Shown here in pieces: positions 21,621-31,710 of a stretch of DNA of 64,000 nt. How positions within the stretch are numbered: position 1 is the first letter of the stretch; each line of letters opens with the position of its first letter. The stretch is from Polytrichum commune (lineage: Eukaryota; Streptophyta; Polytrichopsida; Polytrichales; Polytrichaceae). The position numbers were made by a program, and so were the translations under genes. The stretch spans positions 36,727,180 through 36,791,179 of the forward strand of contig OX485808.1 of assembly GCA_950295325.1 (NCBI GenBank), in the 5' to 3' direction. Below the pieces are notes generated by a model. The model did no database searches. It was not told where the DNA came from and saw nothing but the letters and a program-made list of their open reading frames with translations.

Positions 21621-24480
21621 TTTATACTTATCAACGTGTCATGAAGACTTATATTTCACCTTAAAACCCGATTTTCTTTTGAGAGCGAAGGAAAACATGG
21701 GAAAGCTCACAGGGTGCCCTCTCTTGTGAATCGAACATGCCGTTCCAAAAAGGGTGAACTTGGTGAGTTGATGGCTGACGCACAAGTATGGTGGCCTCAT
21801 ATCGTCGCTCATCTAGAACAGACATCTATATTTACGTTATACATAATAAGGCTAAAGTTTTGAAACAATCACTACAAGGACATGGGTTATGCTGAGATTT
21901 GGACTATGTGCAAATGCAATTCATTTTATTGTATTTGGACTATGTGCAATAGGCCGCATACCTTATGCAGAGAAGCGATTCGGAGAACGGGTTAGCATCG
22001 CACTTCCGTAATTTTTTTTGACATGATTGAAGTACACATCTCTACTTAGTCCCTAGTTTTCACATAGAAATCTTTGATTGAACACACTTGAAATTTTATG
22101 GACGAACTCTCACATGTGTGGAAATGTAGGATATCTCTGTACACAAACTCAATCACTTTATATTACATAGAAGTGGCCATTTGTTAAATTGCATAGATGC
22201 AAGTCATGAAGCAGGTTGGCTAAGTTTTAGCTGAATTTGATTGCCATCCATGGTGTTCCATTCTAATGTCTTCTTTTCTGCGACATCTTTCAGGTGGACA
22301 AGTTTGAAATAGACAAGGTGCTTGTGAAGGATATTCAAACAAGGTGCCATTAAATACATCCAGGGTTACTTTTCTTTCTTGTAAGGTATTGCATGTTGGG
22401 GATGATCATTTACATGAAATCGTGGCCTTTGGTTGATGTAAGGTTTGGGATAATATTTGTAAATCAATGTTAGACTCATTTGTGTATTGGGCTGAAAGAG
22501 TTTTGATGAAAGAGAATGTGATCTCAACAATAAAAGTAGTTGTAAGAGTATTCCATCTTGCACTTGGACATTAAGGATGATTGACCATGTTGGTGATGCC
22601 TTGCAAGGGGAAGCTGAAAATTCAGTGCAATAGTATGGTTATTCAAAAATGATTTATCTTGATTGTCGTTCCTAGTAACAAATGTTTAACACAAATTGGT
22701 GAAGTGAGTCATAGTTTATGTGGAGAGATTTGTTTATCTATTTCATCTTTTTGGCTTAGGAGAGTTGATGCCATCATTTTCAGTGGAACCCATGAATTTG
22801 TTTCTAACCATGTCCAAGATTGGTCTTGTTATGAATAGGGATTGTAATGGCACTTTGGTTCATTGTGGATGAAAATTGAAAAAGGGTGGTGTGTTAAAAT
22901 CAAGTTTTACTTTTCCATTGAGTTGAGCACAAAAGGCCGCTATGGCAAAGTATGGTAGATTGCATGTGACAACATCAAAGTATGCTAGAAAGCAAGGCCT
23001 GGTTAGTGAAGATCATTGAAATGACAAAATGAAAGTTGGACTAAAAATAAATTTGAAAAGATGGTTGTTTGTATTGCAGTTTGAGGTCCACGGATGAGAT
23101 GATACGAAGGATTAATAGACCACTTTGGAGAATTTAATCTTTCAAGTTTTGGAACTCTAAAGCTGCATTCAACAACATAACCAAGAGTACACATAGGTGT
23201 TTGAAAGAGGCCATTATGCAAGAAAGAATTGAAGGTTCATCCCCCTTGACTTAGGTATTTACATCCCCACAACATGTCTCACATGCTCAAAGAACTTGTA
23301 AAAGTTGCTTTAGTATTTTACAATTGCAGTTTTTGAAACTTCTCATTATGTTGTTGATGACCTTCAGTGTTTTGTTAAACAACCAATTGTTGATTCTTCC
23401 AGAGTTGTTTTGAATGGTTAAATAAAGGAATTTGATTTATTTGCTCTTTTTAGTTGTCAGTCACATTGTTGATAACAAGGGTTATGCTCAGATTTTCTTG
23501 TTGGCTATGATTCTCAACGCGTTAGGGATAAGAGTGGGTTTGTGGTTGTGATGAACAGTGAATTCTTGTTGAAATTTCACTTCAATTTCACCACCTGATA
23601 GGTTATATTGTTCTCATCTTTTGTCCCTCCAAACTTGAATTTGACAACATTTTGAGTAGTAATAATTTTATTGAGGCCATAGTAATTTGATGTGGATATT
23701 TAATTTTTTTGAAATTATTCACATACAAGAAACAAATCATTAGACTTTATAAATTTGAACTTGGAATTTTTATCTCTTATAATTGTGGTGAACAAAGAAA
23801 TACTTTGATTTATGTGTCACACACAACTTTATGTGTCACACATAGCTTTATGTGCTTTCTTATATATGTTTTAGGTTTACAAGACATAGTCAGTAGATTT
23901 GAAAAATTCTCTACAAAGTTTGGATAGGCAAGGAACTTTATATCGTATCCACTTAGGAAGAGCTTATTTGCACCTCATGGTACTCCAACCGTATTGGGTG
24001 TGCACAATAAGTTGGTATTCGTTTCATGCTGGATGTCATATGAAGTCTATAGTAATTTAGTGATACATAAAGCACCTAAATTTGCAAGGGATTAAGCATG
24101 TTATTCATCTTGGGCTCATTTTTATGTTGTAGACATCAAACTGTGACAATGCAATGTTATGTATTGTATATTGCGAACCCAAATTGTCAATAAATGCCAT
24201 GTGATGAATCATAGTGAAATTCAAGGTTGACATTTTAGTTCAATGTACACTATCAAGTTATGTGCTAATTTAAGATGTTGATATGCTAGGTGTGTTCCAT
24301 ATAAAGTATTGTTTGAAAACAACACAACAATGACACCAAGTGGGCATCAAACATAAAAAAAAGTCTAGCAATATGTATACAAATTATGCCAAATGCTATT
24401 GTCTTTTCCTTTGTGTGATGTGGCATTGAATTTGTAGATGCAACGTGACTCTAATTCTTACCCTTTTTTTGTTCTACATG
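21621..24480. other. upstream region of the kinase-NB-LRR gene; no gene recognised
   Basis: AT-rich sequence with only short, random-looking open frames. It probably contains the promoter and a 5' untranslated exon of the gene starting at 24484, because that exon is preceded by a clear splice acceptor, but I could not place the upstream exon. Confidence 0.4.
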
Positions 24481-24483
24481 CAG
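24481..24483 (+). other. splice acceptor before the first coding exon of the kinase-NB-LRR gene
   Basis: A pyrimidine-rich run (CTTACCCTTTTTTTGTTCTA) ends in CATGCAG, directly followed by GATATGATGGCT. This is a good 3' splice site, so an untranslated (or short coding) exon should lie upstream. The ATG at 24487 is then the first start codon in the exon. Confidence 0.6.
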
Positions 24484-24486
24484 GAT

Positions 24487-26154
24487 ATGATGGCTAATCA
24501 ATCCAATATCTTGGGGCTTTGTATATTCAACACTGACTACATACAACAAATTGTGCATGAGGGGGGTGCCAAGTTTGCATTGAATCAACGCCAATGCACA
24601 TGTCTTGCACAAACGCTCAAAAAATTCACCAGTACTATAGAAATTATTTTCTCCCATACAAATGAGTTTCTTAACAATTGTGACTTGTTCTTGAAGGAGT
24701 TGTTTCTAGTTATTGAAAGGGCCAAGTTGTTGGTACAAGAGTGTTATGGTGAGAAATGGTGGCATGTAGCATTGCTCCAAATCCACAATGAAGAGGCATT
24801 CCAAGACTTGTTCATGAATCTCAAATCTTGTCATGATGATATTTATCGACATTTAAAAGGCCAATGTGTTGGACAGTTGGACCAATTTCAAGATGATGTG
24901 AGTTTTTCACTAAGCACCATGAGTGAATTGGGAGTTGAAGATCATCTCGAATTGGTGAGGCGATTACAAGCAAGCGTAGAATCCACGCATTCATCCTCTA
25001 AGAACAAGGTCACTAGCAAAGAGTCAACGATTGCGGCATACTTGTTGAAAAGATATGACAATCAAGGTTACTATGTGAATGGTGGACAACATGTGGAGGT
25101 TGATGCACGATTGGGTTGGCGAGGCTCAAGCCCACTTGGAGAAGGTGCGTGTGGCAATGTAGAGAAAACAACTTGGTTTGGTTTGCCGTGTGCAAAGAAG
25201 GTTCAAGTTTTGGGTGATATGGAAGATGGGGACAAAAGCTTCAAGAAAGAGGTAGGCATACTTGCAAGCGCCAATCATCCAAATGTCGTGAAATTCATAT
25301 GTTGTGGCCGAAAACCAGAGAAACGCAAATGTTTCATTGCTATGGAGCTTCTAGACACAAGCTTGGAGGCATTGATGGAGGAGGTATCAAATGGCGGAAC
25401 AAAAACACCCTTCCCAATTCAAGTAGCTATGGACATCATCTTACAAATCGCGAAGGGCATGAGTTATCTACATGGGAAGAAAATTGCACATCGGGATTTA
25501 AAACCTGCCAATGTGTTGGTGCATAAAATCATGGTGGACGAATTGCACAAGGACAACTATGTGAATGTGAAGTTGGCCGACTTTGGACTTTCAAAAACGG
25601 ATGTGCATAGCAACATTTCTGAGAAATTAAGCCAAGGTATTGGGACGAGGTTGTATAAAGCACCTGAGCTATTCCACTACACCAACCAAAAGACAAAGAA
25701 CACGATGTCTTTTGCAGTGGAAAAAGTGAATGCACATGAAGCCGATGTATACAGTTTTGGTGTGATGTGTGCAACTATACTCTCAGGAAACCAACCATTT
25801 GAAGGCGATGGTCATGATCTTCCTACAAGGCTAAGGTCAGGTGAGAGGCCATGGGTGCCTGATGATTGTCCCCAAGCTTTGGTCTCCTTGATCAACGAAT
25901 GTTGGTCATTAGAACGAACAAAGAGACCCAAGTTCAAGGAGATTTGCACAACATTAAAAGAATTGAGAAGTTCCATTTTATGGGGAAATGTTGCACTTAG
26001 AAATCAAAAGGTGGAAAATGAGACAACCTTGTTTCAAAGGATTTCAAATTTGCCTCATGACGTTATATATTTGTGCAAACGCTTCTGGAGGACACCGAAT
26101 TTGGAGGGGAGAGAAGCTAATGAGGCCCAACATACAAGTCAATTTCATACCAAG
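24487..26154 (+). CDS. exon 1: HeLo/DUF1221-like helical region plus protein kinase
   Basis: This exon encodes residues 1-556. The first part reads FALNQRQC, then FLKELFLVIERAKLLVQEC and EKWWHVALLQIHNEEAFQDL. The pattern of a helix with LNQRQC, an L.EL..V...A...V..C helix, then WW followed by a helix, resembles the DUF1221 (HeLo-like, four-helix) region of plant MLKL-like proteins. That assignment is by eye. A linker of low complexity (STHSSSKNKVTSKES) precedes the kinase. The kinase reads through to ECWSLERTKRPKFKEIC, the usual end of subdomain XI. A tail of about 55 residues follows before the donor CCAAG/GTATTA. Confidence 0.85.
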
Positions 26155-29100
26155 GTATTAATCCTACCAATATATTAAATGGTTTAGAAATTAGTTCACA
26201 TCAACTTTCAAATGGGCTAACAAATACAATCAATTTATCTTGTTGTATTCATTTTCATCAAATATTGGATCCAAATACAAATTTGAAATCTTGTTAAAAG
26301 AGAAAGCGTATTCTTTTAAATGAGACAATCAAGGTACTTTGATAGCACTCATAGAAATCATACTCTTTTGCATTTATTGTAACTTATGTGTCAAAGCAAT
26401 ATCTAATATCAAATTTTGTATGTAAAGGGTTTTCAACTTTTTGCACCATTGTCATGGGCAAACCGAATACTTCCATCACAAGTGCGGTCCACACATTCAT
26501 TACCATCACTCCCGGTTCACTTTGTCAATATTGATAAGAAAATCTCAAACGTGTTATTTCAACTAGAATCCAATCAAATTCTAGGCATCGTCGGGATGGG
26601 TGGAAGTGGAAAGACCACTTTGACAAAGGCCATTCTTCATCGTGTGCATGAAGGCTTTGAAGCAACAAGCTTTGTGGCAAATATGAGAGACTCCAAAAAC
26701 ATCTTGGATATACAAAGACAATTGTTGGAGGATCTAAACTACAAGAGGTACATAAACACCACAGAAGAAGGGTTCAAGGACTTACACGAGATATTTGAGA
26801 GGAAAAAAGTCTTTGTTGTCTTTGATGATGTTGCCTCTCAAGAACAACTCCATGGGCTAGTTTCATCTAAGTGGAAGTTTGCTAACGGTAGTAAGATCAT
26901 TGCCACAAGCCGAAATTGGCAAGACTTAAAAACAACTTGTATCTCACACAATGGAAAGATGGACATGGAGTTATTGGACGAAGATGAAGCAAAGGAGCTA
27001 TTCTACAAGCATGCATTCTTACAACAACAATCTCAAGGGCCACAATTTGAAAAAGTTGCCAACAAAGTCATCGAAGCATGTGGTGGTCTGCCTTTGAGTT
27101 TGGAAGTATTGGGAAGTTATTTGTGCGGAGTTCAAAGGCTTAGGGTATGGCAACAAGCATTGCGAAGATTACAGAGGGGACAATGCCTTGGTGGTAGTTG
27201 GGACAACGAAAGGATATGGAGAACGTTGAGGATAAGCTACGATAATTTGGATGGAGAAGAGAAAAACATGTTTTTGGACATTGCTTGTTTTTTTTGTCGG
27301 GATGTTCTCAAGCAAGGGATGGAGGAAGAGAAGGCGTTAAAAATATGGGATTGTGATGATAGTAACGCACATTCTGCACTTTTGAATCTCATGGACCGAA
27401 GTCTTGTGCGAATGGATTTGGATGGGATGTTGACAATGCATGATCATTTACGTGACATGGGACGTATGATAGCATGCAAAGAACATATTGGAGGACAAAG
27501 AATTTGGAATTTGGATGAGTTTGAGCCCACCAAATCTAATGCGAGCATGGTAAATGAATATATCCATCATCTTTGTCTAGTTTCATAATCATAAAGCGTC
27601 CAAATTTGATGAAATTGAGTTTGCACTTATAAGATTCTTTGTAGAAATAATATAAGGAAGTAAATGTATATGTTTGAAGTTTTTTTAATCAATTGAGATA
27701 ATATGAAAAAATCCACACACTTAATGGATTGCCATAAACAATGATTTATAACATGGTTGATGCAGATGATGCAAAACGTGGAAGGTCTTCATGTGGCTGG
27801 ATCTCATTGTAATTATGATATGATTACAAGTTTGGATATGACAAACATAAGGCTCTTGGATATCAACGATTGTGAGAGTTTGGATTACTTTTACAAAACA
27901 ATGAAGAATGCGAATAAATTGAGGTGGATGCGGATAAACATGAGCTCAACCCTATATAGAGGAGAAAAAATTGAAGAGTTGCAACCATCATTTTTCATTC
28001 CATTCAAACAGTTGCGTGTGTTGGAGATGAAGAGCTTTGTGCACTTGCAACAATTTCCACTTGAAATTGGAACCCTTAAGATGTTACAATACCTTACCTT
28101 AGTTGATTGTAACGCATTGGAATTCATACCAGAGACATTGGGCAACTTGACTTCCTTGGTGACATTGGATTTGGGTGGTTGCTCGAGCTTGAGGGAAGTA
28201 CCGGAGACATTGGGCAACTTGACTTCATTGGTGACATTGGACTTGGATGGTTGCTCGAGCTTGAAGGAAGTATCGGAGACATTGGGCAACTTGACTTCAT
28301 TGGTGACATTGGACTTTAGTCATTGCTCGAGCTTGAAGGAAGTTCCGGAGACATTGGGCAACTTGACTTCATTGGTGACATTGGACTTTAGTCATTGCTC
28401 GAGCTTGAAGGAAGTTCCGGAGACATTGGGCAACTTGACTTCATTGGTGACATGCAACTTGTTTGGTTGCTCGAGCTTGAGGGAAGTACCTAAGACATTG
28501 GGCAACTTGACTTCATTGGTGACATTGAATTTGGATGGTTGCTCGAGCTTGAAGGAAGTACCTGAGACATTGGGCAACTTGACTTCATTGGTGACATTGG
28601 CCTTGTGTGCTTGCTCGAGCTTGAAGGAAGTACCGGAGACATTGGGAAACTTGACTTCATTGGTGACATTGCACTTGAGTGGTTGCTCGAGCTTGAGGGA
28701 TGTACCGGAGACATTGGGCAACTTGACTTCATTGGTGACATTGAAATTGTGTGGTTGCTCGAGCTTGGAGGAATTACCGAAGACATTGGGCAACTTGACT
28801 TCATTGGTGACATTGGACTTGGGATATTGCTCGAGCTTGAGGGAAGTACCAGAGACATTGGGCAACATGACTTCATTGGTGACATTGGACTTGGATGATT
28901 GCTCGAGCTTGAAGGAAATACCTGAGACATTGGGCAACTTGTCTTCATTGGTGACATTGGACTTGTGTGGTTGCTCGAGCTTGAGGGAAGTACCGGAGAC
29001 ATTGGGCAACTTGACTTCATTGGTGTTATTGGACTTGGATGACTGCTCGAGCTTGAAGGAAGTACCTGAGACATTAGGCAACTTGACTGCATTGGTGACA

Positions 29101-30471
29101 TTGGCCTTGGATGGTTGCTCGAGCTTGAAGGAAGTACCTGAGACATTGGGCAACTTGACTTCATTGGTGACATTGAAATTGAGGGGTTGCTCGAGCTTGG
29201 AGGAATTACCGAAGACATTGGGCAACTTGACTTCATTGGTGACATTGGACTTGTATGGTTGCTCGAGCTTGGAGAAATTACCGGAGACATTGGGCAACTT
29301 GAGTTCATTGGTGACATTGGAATTGTATGATTGCTCGAGCTTAAACGAAATACCTGAGACAATGTGCAACTTGAATTCATTGGTGACATTGTCGATGAGT
29401 GGTTGCTCGAGCTTGAAGGAATTACCGGAGACATTGGGCAACTTGACTTCATTGGTGACATTGGACTTGTATGGTTGCTCAAGCTTGAAGGAAGTACCGG
29501 AGACATTGGGCAACTTGATTTCATTGGTGACATTGTACTTGAGTGGTAGCTCGAGCTTGAGGGAAGTACCGGAGACATTGGGCAACTTGACTTCATTGAT
29601 GACATTGGACTTGCGATGGTGCACGAGCTTGAAGAAGGTACCGGAGACATTGGGCAACTTGACTTCATTGGTGAGAATGGGCTTGGGTGGTTGCTTGAGC
29701 TTGACGGAAGTGCCGGAGACATTGGGCAACTTCACTTCATTGGTGACGTTGGACTTGAGTGGTTTCTCGAGCTTGAAGGAATTACCGAAGTCATTGGGTA
29801 ACTTGACTTCATTGGTGAGATTGCACTTGAGTGGTTGCTCGAGGTTGAAGGAAGTACCACAGACATTGAGCAACTTGACTTCATTGGTGACATTGAAATT
29901 GAATGGTTGCTCGAGCTTGGAGGAATTACCGAAGACATTGGGCAACTTGACTTCATTGGTGACATTGGACTTGTGTGGTTGCTTGAGCTTGAGGGAAGTA
30001 CCGGACACATTGGGCAACTTGACTTCATTGGTAACATTGAAATTGAATGGTTGCTCGAGCTTGGAGGAATTACCGAAGACATTGGGGAACTTGACTTCAT
30101 TGGTGACATTGAAATTGAGTGGTTGCTCGAGCTTGGAGGAATTACCGAAGACATTGGGCAACTTGAATTCATTGGTGACATTGAAGTTGAGTGGTTGCTC
30201 GAGCTTGAAGGAATTATCGGAGACATTTGGCAACTTGACTTCATTGGTGACATTGAAATTGAGTGGTTGCTCGAGCTTAAGGGAAGTATCGGAGACATTG
30301 GGCAACTTGACTTCATTGGTGACATTGGACTTTAGTTATTGCTCGAGCTTGAAGGAAGTTCCGGAGACATTGGGCAACTTGACTTCATTGGTGACATTGG
30401 ACTTGCGATGGTGCACGAGCTTGAAGAAGGTACCGGAGACATTGGGCAACTTGACTTCATTGGTGATATAA
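24487..30471 (+). CDS. MLKL-like kinase / NB-ARC / LRR fusion protein (three coding exons, about 1831 residues)
   Basis: Predicted intracellular immune receptor. Coding exons are 24487-26154, 26428-27549 and 27766-30471. Both introns are phase 0 and have GT-AG ends, and joining them keeps one frame. Domain order: an N-terminal helical region (residues 1 to about 170), a protein kinase (about 205-500), NB-ARC (about 595-900), and LRRs (about 950-1831). The kinase has the glycine loop GEGACGNV (218-225), Lys238, HRDLKPAN (335-342), DFG (365-367) and APE (392-394), so it should be active. NB-ARC shows GMGGSGKTT (612-620), FDDV (688-691), GGLPL (775-779) and MHD (893-895). Kinase-NB-LRR proteins are known from mosses. 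The stop at 30469-30471 falls inside the repeat array, with more LRR-like sequence beyond, so the C-terminus may be a recent truncation. The start is the first ATG after a splice acceptor. Confidence 0.85.
26155..26427 (+). other. intron 1 of the kinase-NB-LRR gene
   Basis: GTATTAATCC at the 5' end and TTTTGTATGTAAAG at the 3' end, 273 bp, AT-rich. It separates the kinase exon from the NB-ARC exon in phase 0, which would make domain shuffling easy. Confidence 0.7.
26428..27549 (+). CDS. exon 2: NB-ARC nucleotide-binding switch
   Basis: This exon encodes residues 557-930. In order: P-loop GMGGSGKTTL, RNBS-A-like TSFVANMRDS, kinase-2 KVFVVFDDVASQEQL, RNBS-B GSKIIATSRNW, RNBS-C ELLDEDEAKELFYKHAFL, GLPL motif CGGLPLSLEVLGSYL, RNBS-D-like FLDIACFF and MHD motif LTMHDHLRDMGRMIA. 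The kinase-2 motif ends in Asp-Val rather than the Trp typical of CC-type receptors. All motifs needed for nucleotide exchange are present. The exon ends ATG/GTAAAT. Confidence 0.9.
27550..27765 (+). other. intron 2 of the kinase-NB-LRR gene
   Basis: GTAAATGAAT at the 5' end and GGTTGATGCAG at the 3' end, 216 bp, phase 0. Confidence 0.7.
27766..30471 (+). CDS. exon 3: leucine-rich repeats
   Basis: This exon encodes residues 931-1831. After about four irregular LRRs (ending LEFIPETLGNL) come about 32 units of 24 residues, consensus LGNLTSLVTLDLSGCSSLKE followed by VPET. Variation is concentrated at the positions after LVTL and around the C/S positions, where solvent-exposed residues would lie. 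The array would form a very long solenoid. The reading frame ends at TAA (30469-30471) in the middle of a unit (LVI then stop, where other units read LVTL). Confidence 0.85.
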   Translation: MMQNVEGLHVAGSHCNYDMITSLDMTNIRLLDINDCESLDYFYKTMKNANKLRWMRINMSSTLYRGEKIEELQPSFFIPFKQLRVLEMKSFVHLQQFPLEIGTLKMLQYLTLVDCNALEFIPETLGNLTSLVTLDLGGCSSLREVPETLGNLTSLVTLDLDGCSSLKEVSETLGNLTSLVTLDFSHCSSLKEVPETLGNLTSLVTLDFSHCSSLKEVPETLGNLTSLVTCNLFGCSSLREVPKTLGNLTSLVTLNLDGCSSLKEVPETLGNLTSLVTLALCACSSLKEVPETLGNLTSLVTLHLSGCSSLRDVPETLGNLTSLVTLKLCGCSSLEELPKTLGNLTSLVTLDLGYCSSLREVPETLGNMTSLVTLDLDDCSSLKEIPETLGNLSSLVTLDLCGCSSLREVPETLGNLTSLVLLDLDDCSSLKEVPETLGNLTALVTLALDGCSSLKEVPETLGNLTSLVTLKLRGCSSLEELPKTLGNLTSLVTLDLYGCSSLEKLPETLGNLSSLVTLELYDCSSLNEIPETMCNLNSLVTLSMSGCSSLKELPETLGNLTSLVTLDLYGCSSLKEVPETLGNLISLVTLYLSGSSSLREVPETLGNLTSLMTLDLRWCTSLKKVPETLGNLTSLVRMGLGGCLSLTEVPETLGNFTSLVTLDLSGFSSLKELPKSLGNLTSLVRLHLSGCSRLKEVPQTLSNLTSLVTLKLNGCSSLEELPKTLGNLTSLVTLDLCGCLSLREVPDTLGNLTSLVTLKLNGCSSLEELPKTLGNLTSLVTLKLSGCSSLEELPKTLGNLNSLVTLKLSGCSSLKELSETFGNLTSLVTLKLSGCSSLREVSETLGNLTSLVTLDFSYCSSLKEVPETLGNLTSLVTLDLRWCTSLKKVPETLGNLTSLVI

Positions 30472-31710
30472 GACTTGAGTGGTTGCTCGAGCTTAAGGGA
30501 AGTATCGGAGACATTGGGCAACTTGACTTCATTGGTGACATTGGACTTTAGTCATTGCTCGAGCTTGAAGGAAGTTCCGGAGACATTGGGCAACTTGACT
30601 TCATTGGTGACATTGGACTTGCGATGGTGCACGAGCTTGAAGAAGGTACCGGAGACATTGGGCAACTTGACTTCATTGGTGATATAAGACTTGAGTGGTT
30701 GCTCGAGCTTGAAGGAAGTACCAGAGACATTGGGCAACTTCACTTCATTGGTGGCATTGTACTTGAGTGGTTGCTTGAGCTTGGAGGAATTACCGAAGAC
30801 ATTGGGCAACCTAACTTCATTGGTGACATTGGACTTGTATGGTTGCTCGAGCTTGGAGAAATTACTGGAGACATTGGGCAACTTGAGTTCATTGGTGACA
30901 TTGGACTTGTATGGTTGCTCGAGCTTGGAGAAATTACTGGAGACATTGGGCAACTTGAGTTCATTGGTGACATTGGACTTGTATGATTGCTCGTGCTTGA
31001 GGGAAGTACCGGAGACATTGGCAACTTGACTTTATTGGTGACATTGAAAGTGAGTGGTTGCTCGAGCTTGAAGGAAGTACCGGAGACATTTGGCAACTCG
31101 ATTTCATTGGTGACATTGTACTTGAGTGGTTGCTTGAGCTTGAAGGAATTACCGGAGACATTGGGCAACTTGACTTCATTGGTTACATTGATCTTGGGAT
31201 GGTGCACGGGCTTAAAGGAAGTACCAGATATCTTGGGCAACTTGACTTCATTGTTTACATTGAAAGTGAGTGATTACTCAAAATTGAAAGAAGTACGGGA
31301 GACATTGGGCAACTTTACTTCATTGGTGACATTAGTCTTGAGTGGTTGTTTGAACTTGATGGAAGCCCCGGAGACATTGGGCAACTTGATTTTATTGAGA
31401 ACATTTCACTTGGGCGGTTGCTCGAGCTTGATGCAAGTACCAGAGATTTTGGGCAACTTGTCTTCATTGGATACATTGAGCTTGGGTCGTTGCTCGAGCT
31501 TGGAGAAATTACCGGAGATATTGGGCAACTTGACTTCATTGGTGACGTTGCACTTGGATGGTTGCCGGAGCTTGATGGAAGTACGGGAGATATTGGGCAA
31601 CTTGACTTCATTGGTGACATTTTACTTCAATGGTTGCTCAAGCTTGAAGGATTTTACCGGAGTCATTGGGCAACTTGATTTCATTGGTGACATTGCACTT
31701 GGTGGTTTAT
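28132..31710 (+). repeat. 72-bp tandem repeat array encoding LRRs (about 50 units)
   Basis: Period 72 bp from GAGACATTGGGCAACTTGAC onward. Most units differ from one another at only a few positions. The largest recent duplications visible are a 216-bp (three-unit) block repeated at 30256-30471 and 30472-30687, and a 72-bp unit at about 30832-30975. Because the period is a multiple of three, other frames on both strands also stay open for long stretches. Confidence 0.95.

Follow-up and report, generated by a model that had tools for sequence, protein, structure and literature searches.

A PNL-class receptor gene of the moss Polytrichum commune with a front end related to plant MLKL proteins

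The stretch of DNA analysed here (the window) comprises 64,000 nucleotides of the moss Polytrichum commune (GenBank assembly GCA_950295325.1, contig OX485808.1, positions 36,727,180 to 36,791,179 of the forward strand), and our subject is a gene within it, predicted to encode a receptor in which a helical N-terminal domain, a protein kinase, an NB-ARC domain and a leucine-rich repeat (LRR) region follow one another. MLKL is the protein that kills animal cells by membrane attack. We find that the N-terminal domain and kinase very probably form a HeLo-kinase module, that is, one of plant-MLKL-like identity, and we moderately favor the view that this moss receptor of the PNL class joins a sensor, an active kinase and a HeLo-like executor in a single protein. 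At the level of sequence, our analysis demonstrates the gene structure, the order of domains, intact kinase and NB-ARC motifs, and a co-linear fusion that recurs across a large family.

Identification of the N-terminal domain relies on a chain of profile comparisons through relatives in the same genome. The initial annotation had noted a resemblance between the segment before the kinase and the DUF1221/HeLo region of plant MLKL-like proteins; the chain turns this resemblance into homology, and the nearest solved kinases, 6lba and 6ka4, agree with it. An alignment of 25 N-termini (A3), picked from 40 related loci that were read (cited by L numbers), has an invariant core of LN...C, C....W and N.E.F, with LN..QC in motif form. 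When the genome was scanned with DUF1221, 15 places matched at E ≤1, the best of them above the cut-off. The best two, L043 and L044 (26.3 and 21.8 bits by hmmscan, cut-off 25), share these motifs and are HeLo-kinases without an NB-ARC in the ~3.6 kb downstream, while two others belong to the receptor family itself: L019 (E 0.11) and L045 (E 0.47), whose NB-ARC begins within the stretch read. A3 matches the L043/L044 profile at 98.2% (E 4.4e-14, 149 columns) with a score of 89.8, where 100 column shuffles reach at most 19.5, and the L043/L044 pair in turn matches Arabidopsis DUF1221 at 92.6% (E 4.4e-7). Compared directly, A3 and Arabidopsis DUF1221 give an E value of 1.3e-4, and none of 100 shuffles scores as high. 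Because these links run from A3 through L043/L044 to Arabidopsis, we regard homology between the N-terminal domain and the DUF1221 domain of plant MLKLs as established from sequence.

Further comparisons bear on the same question. Against 177,635 distinct PDB sequences, the sole match of A3 at E ≤10 is the DUF1221 kinase 6lba. The N-termini of 6lba and 6ka4, which are DUF1221 by Pfam (6e-41 and 1e-44), align co-linearly, if very weakly, with that of the window protein and share NQRQC identically. Only 0 or 1 of 2000 shuffles score as high as the window segment against these two DUF1221 fragments, which were cut at the alignment ends, slightly favouring the window match. The helical periodicity of residues 1-160 is matched by 16 of 1000 shuffles, and residues 1-205 contain no proline. 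Taken one by one at E ≤0.1, members of A3 match MLKL_N (12/25), RPW8 (10/25), DUF1221 (6/25), ATG17_like (5/25) and DUF7792 (5/25), a helical HeLo-type profile without a clean family assignment. With residues 1-188 of the window protein alone, Pfam returns RPW8 at 1.6e-4, MLKL_N at 0.0055 and DUF1221 at 0.037.

Several results weigh against this identification. In the Pfam scan of the entire window protein, RPW8 (5e-5, 23.4 of 30.4 bits), MLKL_N (0.036, 14 of 27) and DUF1221 (0.23, 11.4 of 25) are all reported; the search with hidden Markov models proposed in the initial annotation yields matches, but every one lies below its cut-off. For DUF1221, scores of the window protein range from 11.4 to 15.2 bits, where formal membership begins at 25. 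Nine scrambles and one reversal produced no match to these three families and one to an unrelated family at 0.0092, and lone DUF1221 values (0.015-0.23) therefore mean little by themselves. No HeLo-type family appeared at E ≤0.01 in six relatives scanned whole with Pfam, and the window N-terminus, compared as a single sequence with solved structures, gave no useful match. The match of A3 to 6lba is weak (E 0.089) and 6ka4 was missed; the direct comparison with Arabidopsis DUF1221 reaches only 53%; and other helical families match some A3 members as well, among them ATG17_like (lowest E 2.3e-5) and DUF7792 (lowest E 3.1e-4). Finally, a tblastn search with the window N-terminus alone (E 1e-3) missed the fused relatives L023, L025, L034, L038 and L039, in which the domain is visible by alignment only.

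That kinase, NB-ARC and LRR are encoded by one gene is supported by its exon structure and by its relatives. Coordinates, GT-AG borders and Pfam all agree with the earlier description of three phase-0 exons in a single frame. Exons 1 and 2 hold whole numbers of codons, hence both introns are in phase 0; their borders in the window (a slash marks the splice site) read AAG/GTATTA...GTAAAG/GGT and ATG/GTAAAT...ATGCAG/ATG. The GT donor of intron 1 is kept in 18 of 20 close loci, L017 and L020 having been read at a different offset, and the acceptor was compared in five of those 20. In addition to the kinase, Pfam recognizes NB-ARC (3e-37), WHD_ROQ1 (4.6e-11) and LRRs (1e-105), all of them well past anything expected by chance. 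Immediately 5′ of the ATG, the window gene has the conserved AG/GATATGATG, and 19 of the 20 related loci have AG/G.TATGATGG, with L017 again read at a different offset. The conserved AG resembles a splice acceptor that would close a 5′ intron, which leaves the exact protein start unproven. In intron 1 the reading frame meets a stop after 7 codons (26155-26178). A transcript that kept the intron would therefore encode nothing but a HeLo-kinase of 563 residues, built like a stand-alone MLKL, although an AT-rich intron can be expected to contain a stop of this kind by chance.

A whole-genome search (407.8 Mb) with exon 1, in which 78 of 789 candidates were scored, returned at least 80 matches, evidence of a large family. 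Of the 80 rows, 27 (26 loci, one of them split) are at least 50% identical to exon 1, and each of them is followed on the same strand, within 1.5 kb, by an NB-ARC match; this pairing drew on 32 of 110 NB-ARC rows (28 close, 4 picked by place) and is uninformative for the 53 distant rows. In 67 of the 80, the match starts no later than query residue 32, inside the pre-kinase domain. Distant relatives were judged from the 40 loci read, ten of which carry kinase and NB-ARC in one uninterrupted open reading frame, or ORF (L021-L025, L034-L036, L038 and L039). In nine of the ten the N-terminal domain lies inside the same ORF; the exception is L036, with a preceding stop. Two single-ORF relatives scanned with Pfam contain kinase, NB-ARC, winged helix and LRR in readings of 1622 or 1654 residues. 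It is very improbable, in our judgement, that the exons belong to separate neighbouring genes or to a decaying pseudogene truncated by the stop in its repeat array. Such a history would suit the array units found past that stop, with their second stop and their frame changes, and also the stops in some relatives. It is opposed by the ten loci where one ORF spans kinase and NB-ARC, by the retained intron-1 donor, by a dN/dS ratio (non-synonymous to synonymous substitution) below 1, and by a copy on another contig, 93% identical, that has the same terminal stop. At the family level we dropped the idea of two neighbouring genes in view of the single-ORF relatives.

The LRR array consists of 50 units of 72 bases, 85% matching, at 28127-31707, and the ORF ends in unit 33. 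A relative on contig C5 (L005 with L042), 93% identical in exon 1, ends at the same place in the terminal unit block, and a copy 103 kb away (G000:C6:36854939; L002/L041) is identical over the 4668 bases compared and then through the stop to 30826. Since the stop falls at the same place in L042 on another contig, position 30471 is, on this reading, the inherited protein end, and the array grew past it. The idea of a premature stop was dropped on account of L042 and the identical copy L041. The similarity of 22987-30826 to L002/L041 reflects either a segmental duplication of very recent date or a duplicate introduced by the assembly. Among the 32 complete units that precede the stop, amino-acid changes are concentrated at residues 11, 13, 14, 19 and 21 of 24, and the non-synonymous share of changes is 0.84 (0.72 expected). 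This pattern suits a binding surface under diversifying selection; the test is weak, because the share is much the same (0.79) in the 17 units beyond the stop. Long antisense ORFs across the array, the longest of 647 residues, are ascribed to its 72-base period.

The kinase of the window protein has GxGxxG, the beta-3 lysine, the glutamate, HRD and DFG, and is by these features no pseudokinase. Among all PDB sequences its closest solved relatives are 6lba (145 bits) and 6ka4 (126 bits), which we take to be AtMLKLs, followed at a distance by B-Raf (92 bits). Where the window kinase has its HRD and DFG motifs, 6lba and 6ka4 read HGDLNP and HGELNP, and FGL lacking the DFG aspartate; L043 and L044 keep HRD and read AHFS and AGFG. 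Of the 40 related loci, 39 could be aligned: the beta-3 lysine, alpha-C glutamate, catalytic-loop lysine and asparagine are found in 39/39, the HRD and DFG aspartates in 38 each and the HRD arginine in 34. The contrast with pseudokinase MLKLs drawn in the initial annotation thus holds relative to 6lba and 6ka4, but it does not extend to every MLKL, as the kinase residues of the wheat MLKL Pm13 are reported to be intact as well (PMC10951266, accessible part). Among ten close copies including the window gene (45 pairs; broken copies, the identical copy, L018 and others excluded), dN/dS is lowest in the kinase (0.29), higher in the N-terminal domain (0.46) and highest in the linker (0.59); as far as sequence comparison can, this demonstrates purifying selection on the N-terminal domain. 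In a tree of 36 kinase rows, in which the basal order is open and several branches are long, L026-L029 group together as a clade (SH-aLRT 89), next to those groups that are fused to an NLR (nucleotide-binding LRR receptor). L033, L037 and L045 make up a subgroup with an altered kinase, with HLD for HRD and NYG or DYG for DFG in L033 and L045; in L033, L037 and two further rows an NB-ARC follows at a distance of ~300 bases.

We propose the following sequence of events for a receptor built in this way. The LRR region would detect an effector or a change in the host, upon which the TNL-type NB-ARC would exchange ADP for ATP and oligomerise, so that the resulting ring gathers several HeLo-kinase modules. 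Once gathered, the active kinases could phosphorylate each other's linker or HeLo-like bundle, or else a downstream substrate; the helical bundle, freed in this way, might bind and permeabilise the membrane, leading to local cell death. Such a receptor might also do without a separate helper, as the initial annotation supposed. In this scheme we infer the four-helix fold, oligomerisation, trans-phosphorylation and membrane action of the receptor, and we place the membrane-executor step itself slightly short of an even chance. HeLo domains of the MLKL and RPW8 types are reported to induce cell death in the accessible parts of two papers (PMC9950082, PMC10951266). According to the available portion of a third, all kinase N-termini tested except one mutant caused mild ion leakage, in constructs that ran up to the NB-ARC (PMC11218826); the same portion describes the response to a P. 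patens kinase N-terminus as 'modest yet variable' (PMC11218826), which weighs against this scheme.

Two other assignments of function have to be weighed against an executor role. The kinase may itself be the output, phosphorylating cellular targets, with the HeLo-like helices serving only in dimerisation, localisation or autoinhibition. This would accord with the dN/dS minimum in the kinase, with the two catalytic aspartates retained in 38/39 relatives and with the dependence of cell death on the HRD motif of the Tsn1 kinase (PMC11218826, as far as accessible). We nevertheless think it unlikely: all four subgroups sampled combine the helical domain with the kinase, and this domain is related to the reported cell-death inducers cited above. 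A further reading treats the HeLo-kinase module as an integrated decoy: a stand-alone HeLo-kinase attacked by pathogens would have been copied into the receptor as bait, and separate helpers would run cell death. In its favour, L027-L029, L043 and L044 in the same genome are HeLo-kinases lacking an NB-ARC in the 1.3-3.7 kb examined downstream, and in the accessible text on NLRtracker (PMC8559963) P. patens kinases appear among the integrated domains. Against this, Pfam reveals no other N-terminal signalling domain in the window protein, and the module is retained throughout a large expanded class. Decoys are usually sporadic, and we hold this explanation to be improbable.

Extending the executor model from this gene to moss kinase-NLRs as a class, we tentatively suggest that they are MLKL-NLR fusions. 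NB-ARC oligomerisation would make such a receptor a one-chain 'necrosome', uniting active, RIPK3-like kinase activity with its own HeLo executor; the HeLo-kinase module would first have stood alone and later have been taken into NLRs; and pseudokinase MLKLs would represent a branch whose catalysis was lost once sensor and executor had been kept apart. Taken jointly, these three parts amount to a speculation on the doubtful side of even. In the accessible text of PMC3352924, kinase-NLRs predominate among the NLRs of the moss P. patens (45 of 65); the available portion of PMC10952240 describes their output as phosphorylation of targets, for which evidence is wanting. Should a HeLo-kinase module indeed form their N-terminus, kinase-NLRs would share the executor family of MLKL and of the NLRs of the coiled-coil (CC) and RPW8 types, and how they act could be addressed with a handful of deletion and kinase-dead experiments. 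There would also be an active-kinase relative of MLKL outside seed plants, the group in which the family is described in the available part of PMC9950082.

Table 1. Coordinates of the receptor gene and its parts in the window (a slash marks a splice site)
Feature	Position	Strand	Description	Basis
Exon 1	24487..26154	+	556 codons: HeLo/DUF1221-like domain, linker, kinase	sequence, ORF, Pfam
Exon 2	26428..27549	+	374 codons: NB-ARC and winged helix, ROQ1-like	ORF, Pfam, PDB comparison
Exon 3	27766..30471	+	901 codons and stop (30469-30471): LRR region, 24-residue units	ORF, Pfam; stop common to L041, L042
Intron 1	26155..26427	+	phase 0, GT-AG; class-specific position according to the accessible text of PMC3352924	
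Intron 2	27550..27765	+	phase 0, GT-AG; exon 3 of L042 begins alike	
Probable 5′ intron acceptor, GCAG/GAT	24480..24486	+	immediately 5′ of start codon	sequence and related loci
HeLo/DUF1221-like N-terminal domain	24487..24861	+	residues 1-125; NQRQC 33-37, EKWWH 89-93	Pfam, profiles
Linker between domain and kinase, place of brace	24862..25110	+	residues 126-208	partly inside the match of A3 to L043/L044
Protein kinase domain	25129..25956	+	catalytic residues intact	Pfam PF07714 1.3e-40; best PDB 6lba, 6ka4
LRR-like units past the stop (array tail)	30472..31707	+	stop repeated 30685-30687; frame changes near 31016, 31665	

Other loci of the genome, and one other element in the window, deserve mention. 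Very long single ORFs occur in relatives (2924 residues in L023, 2501 in L035, and likewise in L021), and five relatives stand in a row over ~150 kb at G000:C6:37185610-37339379, with ORFs of 1684 to 3674 residues. L026 (G000:C1:10899000-10905000) has a kinase, a HeLo-like domain and a second kinase, with no NB-ARC match in 6 kb, and thus the layout of a double-kinase HeLo protein; ORFs of 1167 and 1137 residues are found there and at G000:C1:11031517-11032992, the latter by coordinates only. Outside the exon-1 rows, MLKL_N matches above the cut-off occur at G000:C7:41446218 and seven other places, in ORFs of 205-951 residues. On the minus strand of the window, a 615-residue ORF at 58755-60602 matches RNase H (6e-15) and, weakly, zf-RVT (0.15), and probably belongs to a LINE-type element.

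Kinase-NB-LRR receptors are indeed known from mosses, as the initial annotation stated: they constitute the PNL class, marked, in the accessible text of PMC3352924, by phase-0 introns between kinase and nucleotide-binding site (NBS) and between NBS and LRR. In the gene model, one protein of the window gene runs from kinase through NBS to LRR, in line with the relatives whose kinase and NB-ARC share one ORF, and the introns at both junctions have that phase as read from genomic sequence. By domain order and introns we class the gene as a PNL. Its NB-ARC is closest among solved chains to that of ROQ1, a TNL, or TIR-type NLR (144 bits; 92 for the next chain and 76 for ADR1), and the Pfam scan of the window protein contains no TIR domain, only the ROQ1-type winged helix. 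Membership of the RPW8-type RNLs is likewise not indicated, the RPW8 score being 23.4 of 30.4 bits and a kinase intervening between the RPW8-like part and the NB-ARC. Searches of bacterial/archaeal and viral collections confirmed no relatives, and a library of anti-phage systems gave generic kinase and ATPase matches. The literature searched, with preprints and most subscription papers outside its reach and several sources accessible in part, contains no statement of a HeLo/DUF1221 domain before moss PNL kinases; an RPW8-NBS-LRR is reported from P. patens, with no kinase mentioned in the accessible part (PMC5039405). The receptor class is known, and the MLKL-related origin of its front end is a new reading.

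Comparison with characterized systems sets this architecture in context. With the PNL of Xue et al. 2012 (PMC3352924) and the Pkn-NLR of Chia et al. 2024 (PMC11218826), as far as their accessible text describes them, the window gene shares the kinase-NBS-LRR order, phase-0 introns, an NB-ARC nearest those of TNLs and large expansion. It differs, by description, in that their N-terminus is a kinase only, whereas here a HeLo/DUF1221-like domain comes first. The RPW8-type NLRs ADR1 and NRG1 also place a HeLo-like N-terminus before NB-ARC-LRR, but they lack a kinase, and their NB-ARC is further from that of the window protein than is that of ROQ1. Pm13 of Aegilops longissima, which confers disease resistance, likewise joins a HeLo-type domain (MLKL_NTD) to a kinase that has all of its key catalytic residues; in contrast to the window protein it has no NB-ARC or LRR, and its kinase is assigned to the DLSV/LRR_8B subfamily in the available part of the report (PMC10951266). 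The plant MLKLs 6lba and 6ka4 resemble the window protein in their co-linear DUF1221-like domain and kinase, in common motifs and as the nearest solved kinases. In the moss, this arrangement is fused to NB-ARC-LRR and its DUF1221 score is below the cut-off, and where 6lba and 6ka4 lack the beta-3 lysine, HRD arginine and DFG aspartate (and 6ka4 the HRD aspartate as well), the window kinase has them all.

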